A stretch of 64,000 nt of DNA, taken from positions 207,501 to 271,500 of the forward strand of contig NZ_CP025628.1 of the NCBI RefSeq assembly GCF_003072465.1. The letters are read 5' to 3'. Shown here piece by piece: positions 24,288-37,387 of the stretch. This DNA comes from Candidatus Kinetoplastibacterium sorsogonicusi. Its GTDB lineage: Bacteria > Pseudomonadota > Gammaproteobacteria > Burkholderiales > Burkholderiaceae_B. The notes beneath the pieces were generated by a model that saw only the letters and a list, made by a program, of their open reading frames with translations, was not told the DNA's origin and searched no databases. Positions within the stretch are counted from its first letter, which is position 1. The number at the start of each line of letters is the position of its first letter. Made by a program: the position numbers and the translations under genes.

Positions 24288-24785
24288 TTAATTTTTAAAT
24301 GTTTTATTAATTATATAATCATTGATTATAATGATAGTTATTCCAATACTAATACATATATCTGCAACATTGAATATTGGAAGATATAAATCTTTATAAT
24401 GAACAAAAATAAAATCAATTACATATCCTTGCCTCATTCTGTCAATTAAATTTCCAATAATTCCACCTAATGATATTGATAAAGCATAATATTTAATATT
24501 ATTTTTTTCTATATTTATTAAAATCAAAAATATTAAAGTGGCTATTGAACTAATAATTATCAAAAACCATATTTGCCATCCATTTTGATCAGATAAGATA
24601 CTAAAAGCAGCACCATAGTTATATATTAAAGTAATACTCAATATATTGGATATATTGAGTATATGATTATATTGAATATGATTTTCAACATAATTTTTTG
24701 TAATTTGATCAATAATAATTATAAAAAAAGCTATAAGAATACTAATATACAAGTTATTTTTAAAAATTAAATTTTTATATATCAT
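24288..24785 (-). CDS. lspA: Lipoprotein signal peptidase (signal peptidase II)
   Basis: A 165-aa inner-membrane aspartyl protease that cleaves prolipoprotein signal peptides. Four hydrophobic segments are visible. The catalytic aspartates fall in GNLIDRM and FNVADICIS. It starts 5 nt after the ileS stop, so translation is probably coupled. A substrate is present in this window: the NlpD-like lipoprotein at 59648. Confidence 0.95.
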   Translation of the reverse strand: MIYKNLIFKNNLYISILIAFFIIIIDQITKNYVENHIQYNHILNISNILSITLIYNYGAAFSILSDQNGWQIWFLIIISSIATLIFLILINIEKNNIKYYALSISLGGIIGNLIDRMRQGYVIDFIFVHYKDLYLPIFNVADICISIGITIIIINDYIINKTFKN

Positions 24786-24790
24786 AAAAA

Positions 24791-27631
24791 TTATGAAAAA
24801 TATCTAATTTCACCAGCACCAAAAATATTTTCAAAACATCTATTACATATTTTTTGATGTTCTTTATGTAAATCATTATGATTACAAAAATTCCAACAAC
24901 GCTCACATTTAATACCATTAGATGGAGTAATAACTATTTTCAAATCATTATCAGTTTCTTTAATTGTAACTTTAGATACTATAAAAACAAATCTTAATTC
25001 TTCACCAATACTATCTAATAATATTTTTTCATTAGATTTAGCATATATTTCTACTTCAGCTTGTAAAGATGATCCTATTGCTCCTGTCATTCTTGATTTT
25101 TCTAATTTATTTTGTACATTTTTTCTTATTATTCTAATTTGGTTCCATTTATGCAAAATATTAGCATTATCTGAAATATTCATTTCATGATAATTTTCTA
25201 TAAAAATAGTTTTTGATTGTTTATAATTATTATTTAATAAATATTGCCATGCCTCTTCTGTAGTAAATGATAATATTGGTGACATTAATTTTAATAATAT
25301 CAAAGCTATATTATATAAAGCAGTTTGAGCGCTACGTCTAATTTTGCCATTAGATTTAGTTGTATAAAGTCTATCTTTTAATATATCTAAATAAAAAGAT
25401 CCTAAATCTTCAGAACAAAAATTTTGTAACTTTGATATAACATTATGAAATTCATATTTATTATAATATTGAATAATTTCATTTTGTAAATTTTTAGTTA
25501 TTAATAGTGCATATTTATCTATTTCTAATAATTGATCATTTTGTAATGCATCTGATATAGGATCAAAATCAGATACATTAGCTAGTAAAAATCTTATAGT
25601 ATTACGAATTCTACGGTAACTTTCTACAACTCTTTTTAATATTTCGTCTGATATATATAATTCTCCAGAATAATCTGTTGTAGCTACCCATAATCGTAAT
25701 ATTTCTGCACCAAATTTATTAGTAATTTCTTTAGGTAAAATAACATTACCAATAGATTTACTCATTTTTTTACCATTACCATCTACAACAAAACCATGAG
25801 TTAGTAATGCTTTGTATGGAGCCTGTTTATATAGCATACATCCGATTAATAATGAAGAATGAAACCAACCTCTATGTTGATCAGATCCTTCTAAATATAA
25901 ATCTGCTGGCCAAGTAAGATTTTTCAAAGAAGCTAATTCTTTTCCTCCCAAAACAGTAATATTTGTTGATCCTGAATCAAACCATACATCTAAAGTATCT
26001 TTACTTTTTTCATATTCATTAACTTCATTGCCTAATAATTCTTGAATATCTATATTTTGCCAAGCAGATATTCCATATTGCTCTATTTTTTTACATATTA
26101 ATTTTATGATGCTTATGGTATTTGGATGTAATTGACCATTTTTTTTATGTATAAAAAATGGTATTGGAACACCCCATTGACGTTGCCTAGAAATTGTCCA
26201 ATCAGGTCTATTAAATATCATAGAATATAATCTTGATTTACCCCATTCTGGATAAAATTTAACATTATTTAAAGCACTTAATGCATTTTCTCGTAATGAT
26301 TTATTACTATTTTTAGGAATAATATCCATATTTACAAACCATTGATGGGTAGACCTAAAAATTAATGGAGATTTATGTCTCCAACAGTGCATGTAACTAT
26401 GATTATATTTTTCATAAAATAATAAAGTATTATTTGTTTTTAAAAATTGGATTATTTTTTCATTAGCTTCCCATATTTTCATATTACCAAAAAATGGTAA
26501 AGAATTTACAAAAAAACCATTTTCATCTATAGGATTAATAATTTCATCATCTGTAAAACCATTAGATTTAAAACATTCAAAATCTTCTATTCCAAAAGCT
26601 GGCGCAGAATGCACAATACCAGTACCATTATCTATATTAACAAAGTCTCCATGAAAAATCTTAGCAGTACGATTGTATATAATATCAGTTCCATATAAAG
26701 GATGATAAAACTCTTCACCTAAAAGTTCTTTTCCTTGTATTGATGATAAAATTTCTCCTTTTAAAGAAAGTGTTTTTAAATAATTTTCTACAAGATCTTT
26801 TGCTACGATTAATAGTAAATCATGATTATTATAAGAAGAATTAACTTTTAATAAAGAATATTTTATATTTGCATTTATTATAAGAGCTTGATTAGCAGGT
26901 ATAGTCCATGGTGTTGTAGTCCATATTGCAATAGCTCCATAAAATTGATTTTTGAAATTAATACCAAATTTTTTTAAAATACTATTATTATTTGAAAATT
27001 TAAAAGCAACATATATAGCATAATCTAACTTATCTTTATATTCTATTTCAGCTTCTGCTAAAGCTGATTTACAATCAAAACACCAATTGACTGGTTTTAA
27101 TCCACGGTTAACATAACCATACTCTAATATTTTAGATAAAACTTTGACCTCATCAGATTCATTTTGAAAATTCATCGTTAAATATGGATCATCCCATTGC
27201 CCTAATACACCTAATCTTTTAAATTCTTTTTTTTGCTTCTCTATTTGTTCTAAAGCATATTCTCTAGCTTTTTTTTGTAATTCTATTGTAGGCAAATATT
27301 TACCATATTTTTTTTCTATTTGAATTTCTATAGGCATACCATGGCAGTCCCATCCAGGTATATAACATGCATTAAATCCTAATAATCTTTTATGTTTTAA
27401 AATAATATCTTTTAATATTTTATTTACTGCATGACCTAAGTGAATATCTCCATTTGCATAAGGAGGACCATCATGTAACAAAAATTTTGGTTTATTTTTA
27501 TTTAACTCAGATAGTATATTATATATATTTTCTTCTTCCCATTTTTTAATAATAATTGGTTCTTTATTTGGTAAATCACCTTTCATTGGAAAAGGAGTTT
27601 CTGTTAAATTTAAAGTATTTTTATAGTCCAT
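24791..27631 (-). CDS. ileS: Isoleucyl-tRNA synthetase (open in frame with upstream ribF)
   Basis: From the ATG at 27631 this part is 946 aa, close to E. coli IleS (938). It starts MDYKNTLNLTETPFPM, has the HIGH motif as HLGH, a CP1 editing domain with TTTPWTIPAN, the KMSKS loop in GKKMSKSIGN, and a C-terminal zinc site CERCWNFC...CNRC. No stop codon separates it from ribF, so the full open frame (24791-28555) reads 1254 codons. No good ribosome binding site precedes the ATG. Either a fused RibF-IleS is made or internal initiation occurs. Confidence 0.93.
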   Translation of the reverse strand: MDYKNTLNLTETPFPMKGDLPNKEPIIIKKWEEENIYNILSELNKNKPKFLLHDGPPYANGDIHLGHAVNKILKDIILKHKRLLGFNACYIPGWDCHGMPIEIQIEKKYGKYLPTIELQKKAREYALEQIEKQKKEFKRLGVLGQWDDPYLTMNFQNESDEVKVLSKILEYGYVNRGLKPVNWCFDCKSALAEAEIEYKDKLDYAIYVAFKFSNNNSILKKFGINFKNQFYGAIAIWTTTPWTIPANQALIINANIKYSLLKVNSSYNNHDLLLIVAKDLVENYLKTLSLKGEILSSIQGKELLGEEFYHPLYGTDIIYNRTAKIFHGDFVNIDNGTGIVHSAPAFGIEDFECFKSNGFTDDEIINPIDENGFFVNSLPFFGNMKIWEANEKIIQFLKTNNTLLFYEKYNHSYMHCWRHKSPLIFRSTHQWFVNMDIIPKNSNKSLRENALSALNNVKFYPEWGKSRLYSMIFNRPDWTISRQRQWGVPIPFFIHKKNGQLHPNTISIIKLICKKIEQYGISAWQNIDIQELLGNEVNEYEKSKDTLDVWFDSGSTNITVLGGKELASLKNLTWPADLYLEGSDQHRGWFHSSLLIGCMLYKQAPYKALLTHGFVVDGNGKKMSKSIGNVILPKEITNKFGAEILRLWVATTDYSGELYISDEILKRVVESYRRIRNTIRFLLANVSDFDPISDALQNDQLLEIDKYALLITKNLQNEIIQYYNKYEFHNVISKLQNFCSEDLGSFYLDILKDRLYTTKSNGKIRRSAQTALYNIALILLKLMSPILSFTTEEAWQYLLNNNYKQSKTIFIENYHEMNISDNANILHKWNQIRIIRKNVQNKLEKSRMTGAIGSSLQAEVEIYAKSNEKILLDSIGEELRFVFIVSKVTIKETDNDLKIVITPSNGIKCERCWNFCNHNDLHKEHQKICNRCFENIFGAGEIRYFS

Positions 27632-28555
27632 AATTTTTTTAAAGTATTCTAAAGCATTATTAACATCATGTTGAATTGCAATAGTAAGTTCTTCCATATT
27701 ACAAAATTTTTCTTCATTGCGTAGTCTATATAAAAATTCAACCCTTATGATTTTTCCATATACATTAACTGTATTATTTAATAAATATATTTCTAATAAA
27801 ACTTTACCATTATCACCTAATGTTTTTCTAATTCCTAAATTAGCTACTCCCATTATAGGGAATTTATAAATATTATGTATATATACACAATATACCCCAT
27901 GTTTGATAGCTATATTTTGTGGTACATTAATATTGATAGTAGGAAAACCTATTTGACGACCAATTTTATTACCATGAACAACATGTCCACTAATATAAAT
28001 ATTATTACCAATTAAATACTTAGCCCTATCAATATTTCCATTAATTAATTCTTTTCGTAATAAGGAACTTGATATTCGTTCTTTATATGCATTAATAAAA
28101 TCATCTAATATTATTATTTCAAAATCATATTTTTTTGCTAAAGATTTTAGTAAATGTATATTCCCTTCTCTGTTATATCCAAAATGAAAATCTTTGCCTA
28201 TAATTAATAATTTTAAATTTAATTTATGTATTAAATCTTTTATAAATTCTAAAGCAGAAATTTTATAGAAACTTTCATTGAATTTTTTAATTATAATTTC
28301 TTCTATATTAGTTTCTAAAATTCCATAAATTCTATCTCTAAGATTACTTATAGTAAAATTATTATTTTTTTTAGAAAAATAATTTTTAGGATGAGGATAA
28401 AAAGTCATAACTGAGGATACTAAATTTCTTTTTTTAGCTTCAATATAAAGTGTATTTAGTATTTTTTTATGTCCTAAATGTATACCATCAAAATTACCTA
28501 TAGTAATAGCTCTTTGTTTCTTTTTTATAAATGTTAGTTTATTATATATTTTCAC
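27632..28555 (-). CDS. ribF: Bifunctional riboflavin kinase/FAD synthetase, reading into ileS
   Basis: These 308 codons cover a whole RibF. The N-terminal FMN adenylyltransferase domain has NFDGIHLGH at 21-29 and SSSLLRKELINGN at 162-174. The C-terminal riboflavin kinase domain has HGNKIGRQIGFPTIN at 194-208 and ends with LRNEEKF...ALEYFKK. It converts riboflavin to FMN and FAD. There is no stop: after EYFKKI the frame enters IleS. The join lies on TTTAAAAAAATT (A7); one more or one fewer A would end RibF within a few codons. ribF-ileS adjacency is the usual order in betaproteobacteria. Confidence 0.9.
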
Positions 28556-35763: not shown

Positions 35764-36963
35764 TCAAGATATAGAATTAATAAAACTTACCATTCTATTT
35801 GCAGCTTCAACACAGTCTTCTATAGTATCTACTAAAGCAATTCTTATATAATTTTTACCTGGATTGATACCATTAAAATCTCTGGATAAAAAACTACCTG
35901 GTATTACTTTAACATTATATTGTTTATAAAGTTCTTTAGCAAAAATTTCATCAGAAATTGGTGTTTTAATCCACAAATAAAATGAAGCTTCTGGTTTGTT
36001 TATATCTATAGCTTTATTTAAAATAGGTATTACTTCACTAAATTTTTTTCTATATAATATTCTATTTTCTATTACATGTTGCTCATCTGACCAAGCTGCA
36101 ATACTAGCTTCAGAAATTAATTTGCTCATAGCACTTCCATGATAAGTTCTATATAATAAAAAATCATTAATAATTTTTCTATCACCAACTACAAAACCAG
36201 ATCTTAATCCTGGCACATTAGATCTTTTAGAAAGACTAGATAGTACTATTAATTTATTATGATCTTTATTCAATAAAGAAGCTGCTTGCAATGCACCTAA
36301 AGTTGGTTTTTTTTCATCTAAATATATTTCAGAATAACATTCATCAGATGCTATAACAAAACCATATTTTTCTGATAAGTTAAATATTTTTTTCCAAGTA
36401 TCTAAATCAATAACATTACCAGTAGGATTACCAGGAGAACATACAAATAGTAATTGAGTATTTTTCAAAATATTGGATGGTATTTCATCTAAGTTGTAAG
36501 CAAACTTATTATTTTCATTAATAGATGTATAATAAACATCTGCTCCAGCTAATATTGCTGCACCTTCATATATTTGATAACAAGGATTTGGGCAAATAAC
36601 TAAAGGATTTTTATTATTAGAATCTATTATAGTTTGAGTTAAAGAAAATAAAGCTTCTTTAGATCCTAAAACAGGTAAAATATCATTATTTGGATCAGGA
36701 GCTATAATATTATATCTTTTAGCAATCCATTGAGATACAGTTTCACGAAATTTATTACTTCCTTTAGTTGCAGGGTAAACTGAAATACCTTCTAAATTTT
36801 TTTTTATAGCTAATTTTACACAATCAGGTGTAGCATGTTTAGGTTCTCCTATAGATAAATCTATTTGGTGCAATTTTATATTTTTGATTTTCTCAACAGG
36901 ATTTAATAATATACGTAATTTTTCAAATGGATATGGATGTAATTTTGATAATTTATTATTCAT
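35764..36963 (-). CDS. dapC: Succinyldiaminopimelate aminotransferase
   Basis: A 399-aa class I PLP aminotransferase. The PLP lysine lies in VLSSLSKRSNVPGLRSGF, and CSPGNPTGN and SDECYSEIY are typical. Position as first gene of dapC-dapD-dapE supports the DapC role over other aminotransferases of the class. It supplies the amino group in the succinylase branch of lysine/DAP synthesis. No lysA is seen in this window. Confidence 0.9.
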   Translation of the reverse strand: MNNKLSKLHPYPFEKLRILLNPVEKIKNIKLHQIDLSIGEPKHATPDCVKLAIKKNLEGISVYPATKGSNKFRETVSQWIAKRYNIIAPDPNNDILPVLGSKEALFSLTQTIIDSNNKNPLVICPNPCYQIYEGAAILAGADVYYTSINENNKFAYNLDEIPSNILKNTQLLFVCSPGNPTGNVIDLDTWKKIFNLSEKYGFVIASDECYSEIYLDEKKPTLGALQAASLLNKDHNKLIVLSSLSKRSNVPGLRSGFVVGDRKIINDFLLYRTYHGSAMSKLISEASIAAWSDEQHVIENRILYRKKFSEVIPILNKAIDINKPEASFYLWIKTPISDEIFAKELYKQYNVKVIPGSFLSRDFNGINPGKNYIRIALVDTIEDCVEAANRMVSFINSIS

Positions 36964-37057
36964 AATTTTTTTAAATAAAATATATAGTTATTGAGTTTAT
37001 AGATAAATTTAAATTAGTAAAACATAATGATTTATAATAAAATATTGTAATGTTAAC

Positions 37058-37085: not shown

Positions 37086-37166
37086 ATAAGTAATATGATT
37101 AATGTATATACAAAATTTTTTATATTATGTATTTATTCATTAAATACATATAAAAACATATAAAAA

Positions 37167-37251
37167 GCGAAGGTGGCGAAATTGGTAGACGCACCAGGTT
37201 TAGGTCCTGACGCTTAAATGCATGTGGGTTCGAATCCCATCCTTCGCACCA
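37167..37251 (+). tRNA. tRNA-Leu (anticodon TAG)
   Basis: An 85-nt type II tRNA. The acceptor GCGAAGG pairs with CCTTCGC, the D arm has GGTAGAC, the anticodon loop TTTAGGT carries TAG, and there is a long variable arm and T loop TTCGAAT. The encoded CCA ends at 37251. The top pair of the anticodon stem is a C-A mismatch (first base C of CCAGG against last base A of CCTGA). It precedes tig-clpP. Confidence 0.96.
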
Positions 37252-37387
37252 CAATGAATCAGTATAATATTAAAAATTAACTGGAATATCATTGAATAAT
37301 TTTTAAATTTTGTTATTTATTTAAATAAACAATACATTATCTAATAATTTTATTAGATTTTATTATAACACTCTTATAGGTTTTAAA

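Follow-up and report, generated by a model that had tools for sequence, protein, structure and literature searches.

Positions 24791..28555 on the minus strand of the window, the whole stretch of 64,000 nucleotides of Candidatus Kinetoplastibacterium sorsogonicusi that was analysed, are occupied by a single open reading frame covering both ribF and ileS. The features of the locus are given below.

24791..28555, minus strand: fused ribF-ileS open reading frame, 1254 codons (open reading frame and family models)
27632..28555, minus strand: RibF part (bifunctional riboflavin kinase / FMN adenylyltransferase), residues 1-308, GTG start (family models)
24791..27631, minus strand: IleS part (isoleucyl-tRNA synthetase), residues 309-1254, with the putative ancestral ATG at 27631-27629 (family model and relatives)
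27634..27640, minus strand: A7 tract (T7 on the plus strand), probable site of a net indel relative to the overlap in relatives
27621..27623, minus strand: putative old ribF stop TAA, in the -1 frame within ileS and not met in the zero frame
24288..24785, minus strand: next downstream gene, which we take to be LspA-like from operon order and sequence; it starts 5 nt past the ileS stop

The sequence-only reading had described ribF and ileS as one uninterrupted frame of 1254 codons, and the open reading frame of the window agreed, running from the GTG start to the stop with no internal stop, as a bifunctional gene fusion would. The RibF end passes into the IleS start without a stop, as that reading had also stated, and both parts are complete. 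The junction on the minus strand is GAA TAC TTT AAA AAA ATT ATG GAC TAT AAA. Single-base changes in the tract, read by hand, had the effects foreseen: one added A gives ...FKKNYGL followed by the TAA at 27623-27621, and one removed A gives ...FKKLWTIKIL followed by a stop. The computed masses are 145.7 kDa for the fusion, 109.8 kDa for IleS and 36.0 kDa for RibF.

Both parts were recognised by family models. The RibF part matched FAD_syn (PF06574, residues 12-164) with 150.9 bits against a curated cut-off of 27 and Flavokinase (PF01687, residues 183-305) with 109.7 bits against 19.6, the two domains that define membership, and the RibF model TIGR00083 with 248.3 bits (cut-off 184.35). The IleS part matched TIGR00392 (residues 322-1171) with 876.9 bits (cut-off 621.4), and its translation contains HLGH, KMSKS and CxxC pairs, which we take to be the HIGH-like motif, the KMSKS motif and the C-terminal cysteines. 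A chance open frame was ruled out, as both parts exceed their family cut-offs. The family search of the genome gave one RibF match, which is the fused frame itself, and one full-length IleS match, the other five being partial with at most 77 bits. The branch of RibF was 0.361 against 0.237 in the sister (1.5 times) and that of IleS 0.296 against 0.230 (1.3 times); judged from these branch lengths, no decay of RibF is apparent. A fold model of residues 1-1199, computed from an alignment of read-through rows of 20 relatives and five IleS proteins, had a mean pLDDT of 81 and a pTM of 0.61, a value that does not fix the relative placement of the two enzymes. In this model the last helix of RibF stops at residue 308, residues 309-317 have a pLDDT below 50 and the next long helix begins at 328, with further weak segments at 489-506, 723-732 and 931-936. 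The predicted structure fits two folded enzymes with a loose linker between them.

The annotation of the locus gives a different picture. The protein collection lists the IleS of this genome with 946 aa (P0001), a length that starts at the internal ATG. For RibF, the searches yielded nothing from this genome, the best match among shorter proteins being P0121 with 62% identity. These records would suit an IleS made from the internal ATG only, with the ribF part an untranslated or decaying remnant. This explanation is considered very improbable, as RibF scores above its family cut-off, is not evolving unusually fast and is the sole RibF match in the genome. Inventories built on such annotation could therefore report a loss of FMN/FAD synthesis that never happened.

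The comparison of ribF-ileS junctions in relatives, proposed earlier as a check, was carried out. The genes were adjoining and separate in all 20 fetched relatives, in accordance with the claim that they are common neighbours as two genes. They overlap in different frames in 16 of the 20, including all seven same-genus genomes searched, the ribF stop lying over the ileS start in the frame of ribF; here the corresponding TAA lies in the -1 frame. The overlap is 11 nt in 14 relatives (ATGGACTATAA and close variants) and 23 nt in two (G002 and G005), and ribF and ileS do not overlap in four (G017, G055, G043 and G052). In G002 and G005 the IleS codon is TAC, not TAT, the overlapping ribF stop is gone and RibF is four codons longer; from these two genomes the ribF end is, on present sequences, labile in this genus. 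RibF of the 16 overlapping relatives ends in F, three residues, G, and L or I (followed by four more residues in G002 and G005). The same pattern was seen in P0121, from the closest relative found, and in P0122, while P0126 has a RibF of equal length with E replacing G, and P0150, from Buchnera, has a different RibF end. The nearest relative, represented by proteins only (P0121/P0002), has separate RibF and IleS, its RibF ending in NALNYFANYGL. The RibF end is conserved because it is encoded by the ileS start, and its conservation follows from that of IleS. The comparison upheld the two-gene state elsewhere and added a probable origin, the loss of an out-of-frame overlap.

F-K-K-N-Y-G-L-stop is still encoded in the -1 frame of the studied locus and exceeds the RibF end of those relatives by one residue. 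An A5 tract would give exactly their RibF length, and A7 gives the fusion. In the simplest history, therefore, the tract would have grown by two A net, or three A would have been gained and one lost. The old ribF stop is preserved because it lies within ileS codons.

If the true genome has another number of A in the tract through a sequencing or assembly error, ribF and ileS would be separate and overlapping as in the relatives. A single-base difference would suffice to undo the fusion, and the overlap in 16 of 20 relatives is consistent with such an error. The A or T runs of at least 7 elsewhere do not point this way. The window holds 118 such runs in 54 conserved gene stretches with no frame break, and 144 kb hold 277 runs in 123 conserved stretches with no break at a run; homopolymer errors therefore look rare. 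No frame break was found at any of the 237 runs lying well inside these stretches, at a distance of over 20 codons from the nearest alignment end, the other 40 being within 20 codons; the control is blind at gene ends, the junction A7 lies in no aligned stretch of it, and five stops close to where an alignment finishes (residues 6-10, or 140 of 147) were not counted as frame breaks. With an A8 tract, moreover, RibF would exceed by one residue the end found in P0121, P0122 and the 16 relatives with an overlap, and the exact length of the relatives' RibF needs A5, that is, an error of two bases. The genome is a single contig of 741,697 bases, rated 99.97% complete. On the other side, one further frame break, in guaA, was found within the 144 kb examined, and other indels therefore exist in this assembly or genome. 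Most annotated pseudogenes are frameshifted in two strains of Ca. K. crithidii, a sister symbiont, according to the portion of PMC8229890 drawn upon, and real indels are therefore plausible. Taken with this evidence, an error at the tract is regarded as unlikely.

The guaA gene (GMP synthase; L130:6732-8307, G000:C1:338232-339807, minus strand, outside the window) is split by a frameshift near residue 322, outside any long run. Its first piece ends in TAA and the ATG of the second piece follows one base on (TAATATG), and the gene is in one piece in G001 and G004; the split guaA is in decay or else consists of two coupled pieces. A candidate frame break at 36981/37151 of the window was discarded, its 37-residue protein-like match to G004 (37151-37252) being the antisense of a tRNA-Leu (37167-37251).

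The ribosome-binding site of ileS was also analysed. The earlier remark that no good site precedes the internal ATG was found correct, no 4-nt Shine-Dalgarno core being present in the 24 nt upstream. The core, for which a generic anti-Shine-Dalgarno sequence was assumed in place of that of the 16S of this genome, is absent before ileS in all 21 genomes (the studied one and 20 relatives). The missing site is, from this comparison, ancestral, and therefore does not count against internal starts. Among the 58 gene starts of the window, which are mechanical open reading frame starts and perhaps wrong in some cases, 46 lack a 4-nt core and 20 are as weak as ileS. The start region of ileS has an MFE of -4.2; 24 of the 58 gene starts are as open, against 36 of 321 internal ATGs. 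The suggestion that IleS is also started internally is thus plausible, its start region being as open as those of real starts. An aminotransferase open reading frame (window 35764-36963) has its start preceded by TTTAAAAAAATT-ATG, the same context as ileS, and this context therefore occurs at an ordinary gene start here.

The sequence-only reading had further suggested that transcriptional slippage at A7 yields a mix of free RibF and fusion. In the wider form of this idea, slippage or a -1 frameshift at A7 would, besides the fusion, produce free RibF with the KKNYGL end in substantial amounts and bring back termination and restart at ileS. As this would need, the -1 frame still contains the ancestral RibF end and its stop; the ileS coding alone keeps them, and their presence is therefore no sign of use. 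Rescue of frameshifted genes at poly(A) is described for Buchnera and Blochmannia in parts of PMC5009743 and PMC3017870, and the latter lists the ribF of Blochmannia vafer as frameshifted in a polyA or polyT tract. The strong cases of rescue, as presented in PMC5009743, involve long poly(A) runs and 12-50% of transcripts. In genes rescued in this way full reading depends on slippage and the A or T tract is long (at least 9 in the relevant sections of PMC3017870 and PMC5009743); here neither gene depends on slippage for an open frame, and the tract has seven A. Runs of exactly 7 are common in this genome, conserved stretches of the window having 80 such A/T runs. Transcription indels in Buchnera occur at about 3.1e-5 per nucleotide and rise with run length, and the account of PMC5574713 used here reports low rates and no restored frame. 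Short as the tract is, these low rates do not support slippage as the main route.

A programmed -1 frameshift follows the rule of a slippery heptamer X_XXY_YYZ read in register with the zero frame. Examples of such heptamers appear in the consulted part of PMC5009743. The zero-frame codons TTT AAA AAA ATT of the junction contain no canonical heptamer in register. Slippage at A7 would at most be a minor source of free RibF, with a small share expected, and substantial use of the tract as a slippage or frameshift site is judged quite improbable. Any ribosomes shifting to the -1 frame would terminate at the old stop and might then reinitiate at ileS, by a mechanism of the kind treated in part of PMC6728339, as a remnant of coupling.

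The rarity of the fusion was assessed by searching 399 genomes of the order and 398 of the phylum, counts that include the studied genome (G000) and some genomes twice. Matches spanning both genes numbered 30 in the order and 24 in the phylum among the matches listed, from 53 distinct genomes. Only G000 had a stop-free span of both genes among these, all others having at least one internal stop; weaker spans beyond the matches listed could be missed. None of 42 listed genomes in which the frame of the ileS match is at least 1179 aa, without the match spanning both genes, was fused; in six of the 42 an extended open frame precedes ileS, but ribF is read in a different one. A widespread fusion was ruled out for the matches listed. 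G017, considered as a fused candidate, was dismissed on account of stops between ribF and ileS. Among 5.77 billion proteins, searched by a method that sees only relatives with shared exact words, the RibF part had no match at 1e-5 in the length range of about 690-2195 aa (3363 candidates). The contig search, from which very near records may be left out, gave four loci with a best identity of 25%. Among the papers searched, none brought isoleucyl-tRNA synthetase, riboflavin kinase and fusion together, and none came up for a fused rpoB-rpoC in Wolbachia. The kind of event, fusion of neighbouring genes in a shrinking genome, is known, and the ribF-ileS instance looks new.

Several known systems resemble the locus in part. 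The overlapping ribF-ileS pair of the Burkholderiales relatives has the same genes, order and ileS start, and likewise no Shine-Dalgarno core; in that pair ribF stops inside ileS in another frame, whereas here the two are in frame with no stop. In Blochmannia pennsylvanicus and B. vafer, yidC-yidD is counted as one fused gene in the section of PMC3017870 concerned, again adjacent genes becoming one open frame in a shrinking genome. The genes are other ones, however; the two enzymes joined here have unrelated functions, and the path by which they came together, via an out-of-frame overlap, is traceable. The poly(A) frameshifts of Buchnera and Blochmannia (portions of PMC5009743 and PMC3017870) share the AT-rich symbiont, the A-tract indel and, in B. 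vafer, a hit in ribF, but there the indel breaks the frame and slippage restores it, whereas here the frame is unbroken, with a tract of A7. Termination-reinitiation at overlapping genes, as covered by part of PMC6728339, may by analogy explain the ancestral ribF-ileS junction, although in the present ribF-ileS the ribosome-releasing stop is out of frame.

The preferred reading, with a probability of about 0.66 from the sequence evidence, is a lineage-specific fusion of overlapping neighbours in which a RibF-IleS chain is made and the old ATG gives some free IleS as well. The ancestral ribF would have stopped 8 nt inside ileS in a different frame, with ileS having no Shine-Dalgarno core. From this overlap and the missing core, translation of ancestral ileS probably depended on ribosomes terminating at the end of ribF and then restarting. 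The shift of ribF into the ileS frame would have come from a net indel in the A-tract, which lies a few codons upstream of the ribF end. Ribosomes coming from ribF would then read on into one 1254-residue, 146-kDa RibF-IleS chain, the first IleS residues would serve as a flexible linker, and the coupling by termination and restart would be lost. The old ileS ATG probably still yields some free IleS, because many genes here start without a Shine-Dalgarno core. As a tentative extension, less probable than not, the only isoleucyl-tRNA synthetase of this obligate symbiont may exist chiefly as the 146-kDa RibF fusion, with the flavin enzyme and the synthetase supplied at a fixed 1:1 ratio and covalent linkage replacing restart coupling, the fusion being the main working form of both enzymes.

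By these comparisons of sequence the fusion is real and, within the scope searched, singular; it would have arisen by loss of the overlap, through an ordinary mechanism. The change was probably near-neutral and no special function is proposed for it; the fusion is unusual, yet a simple outcome of genome decay. Provided that the fused chain is produced, the locus shows that an out-of-frame overlap, which is common in operons, can become a covalent fusion by one small indel, with no selection for joint function needed. The locus is a natural test of whether an essential tRNA synthetase tolerates an N-terminal addition of 36 kDa.
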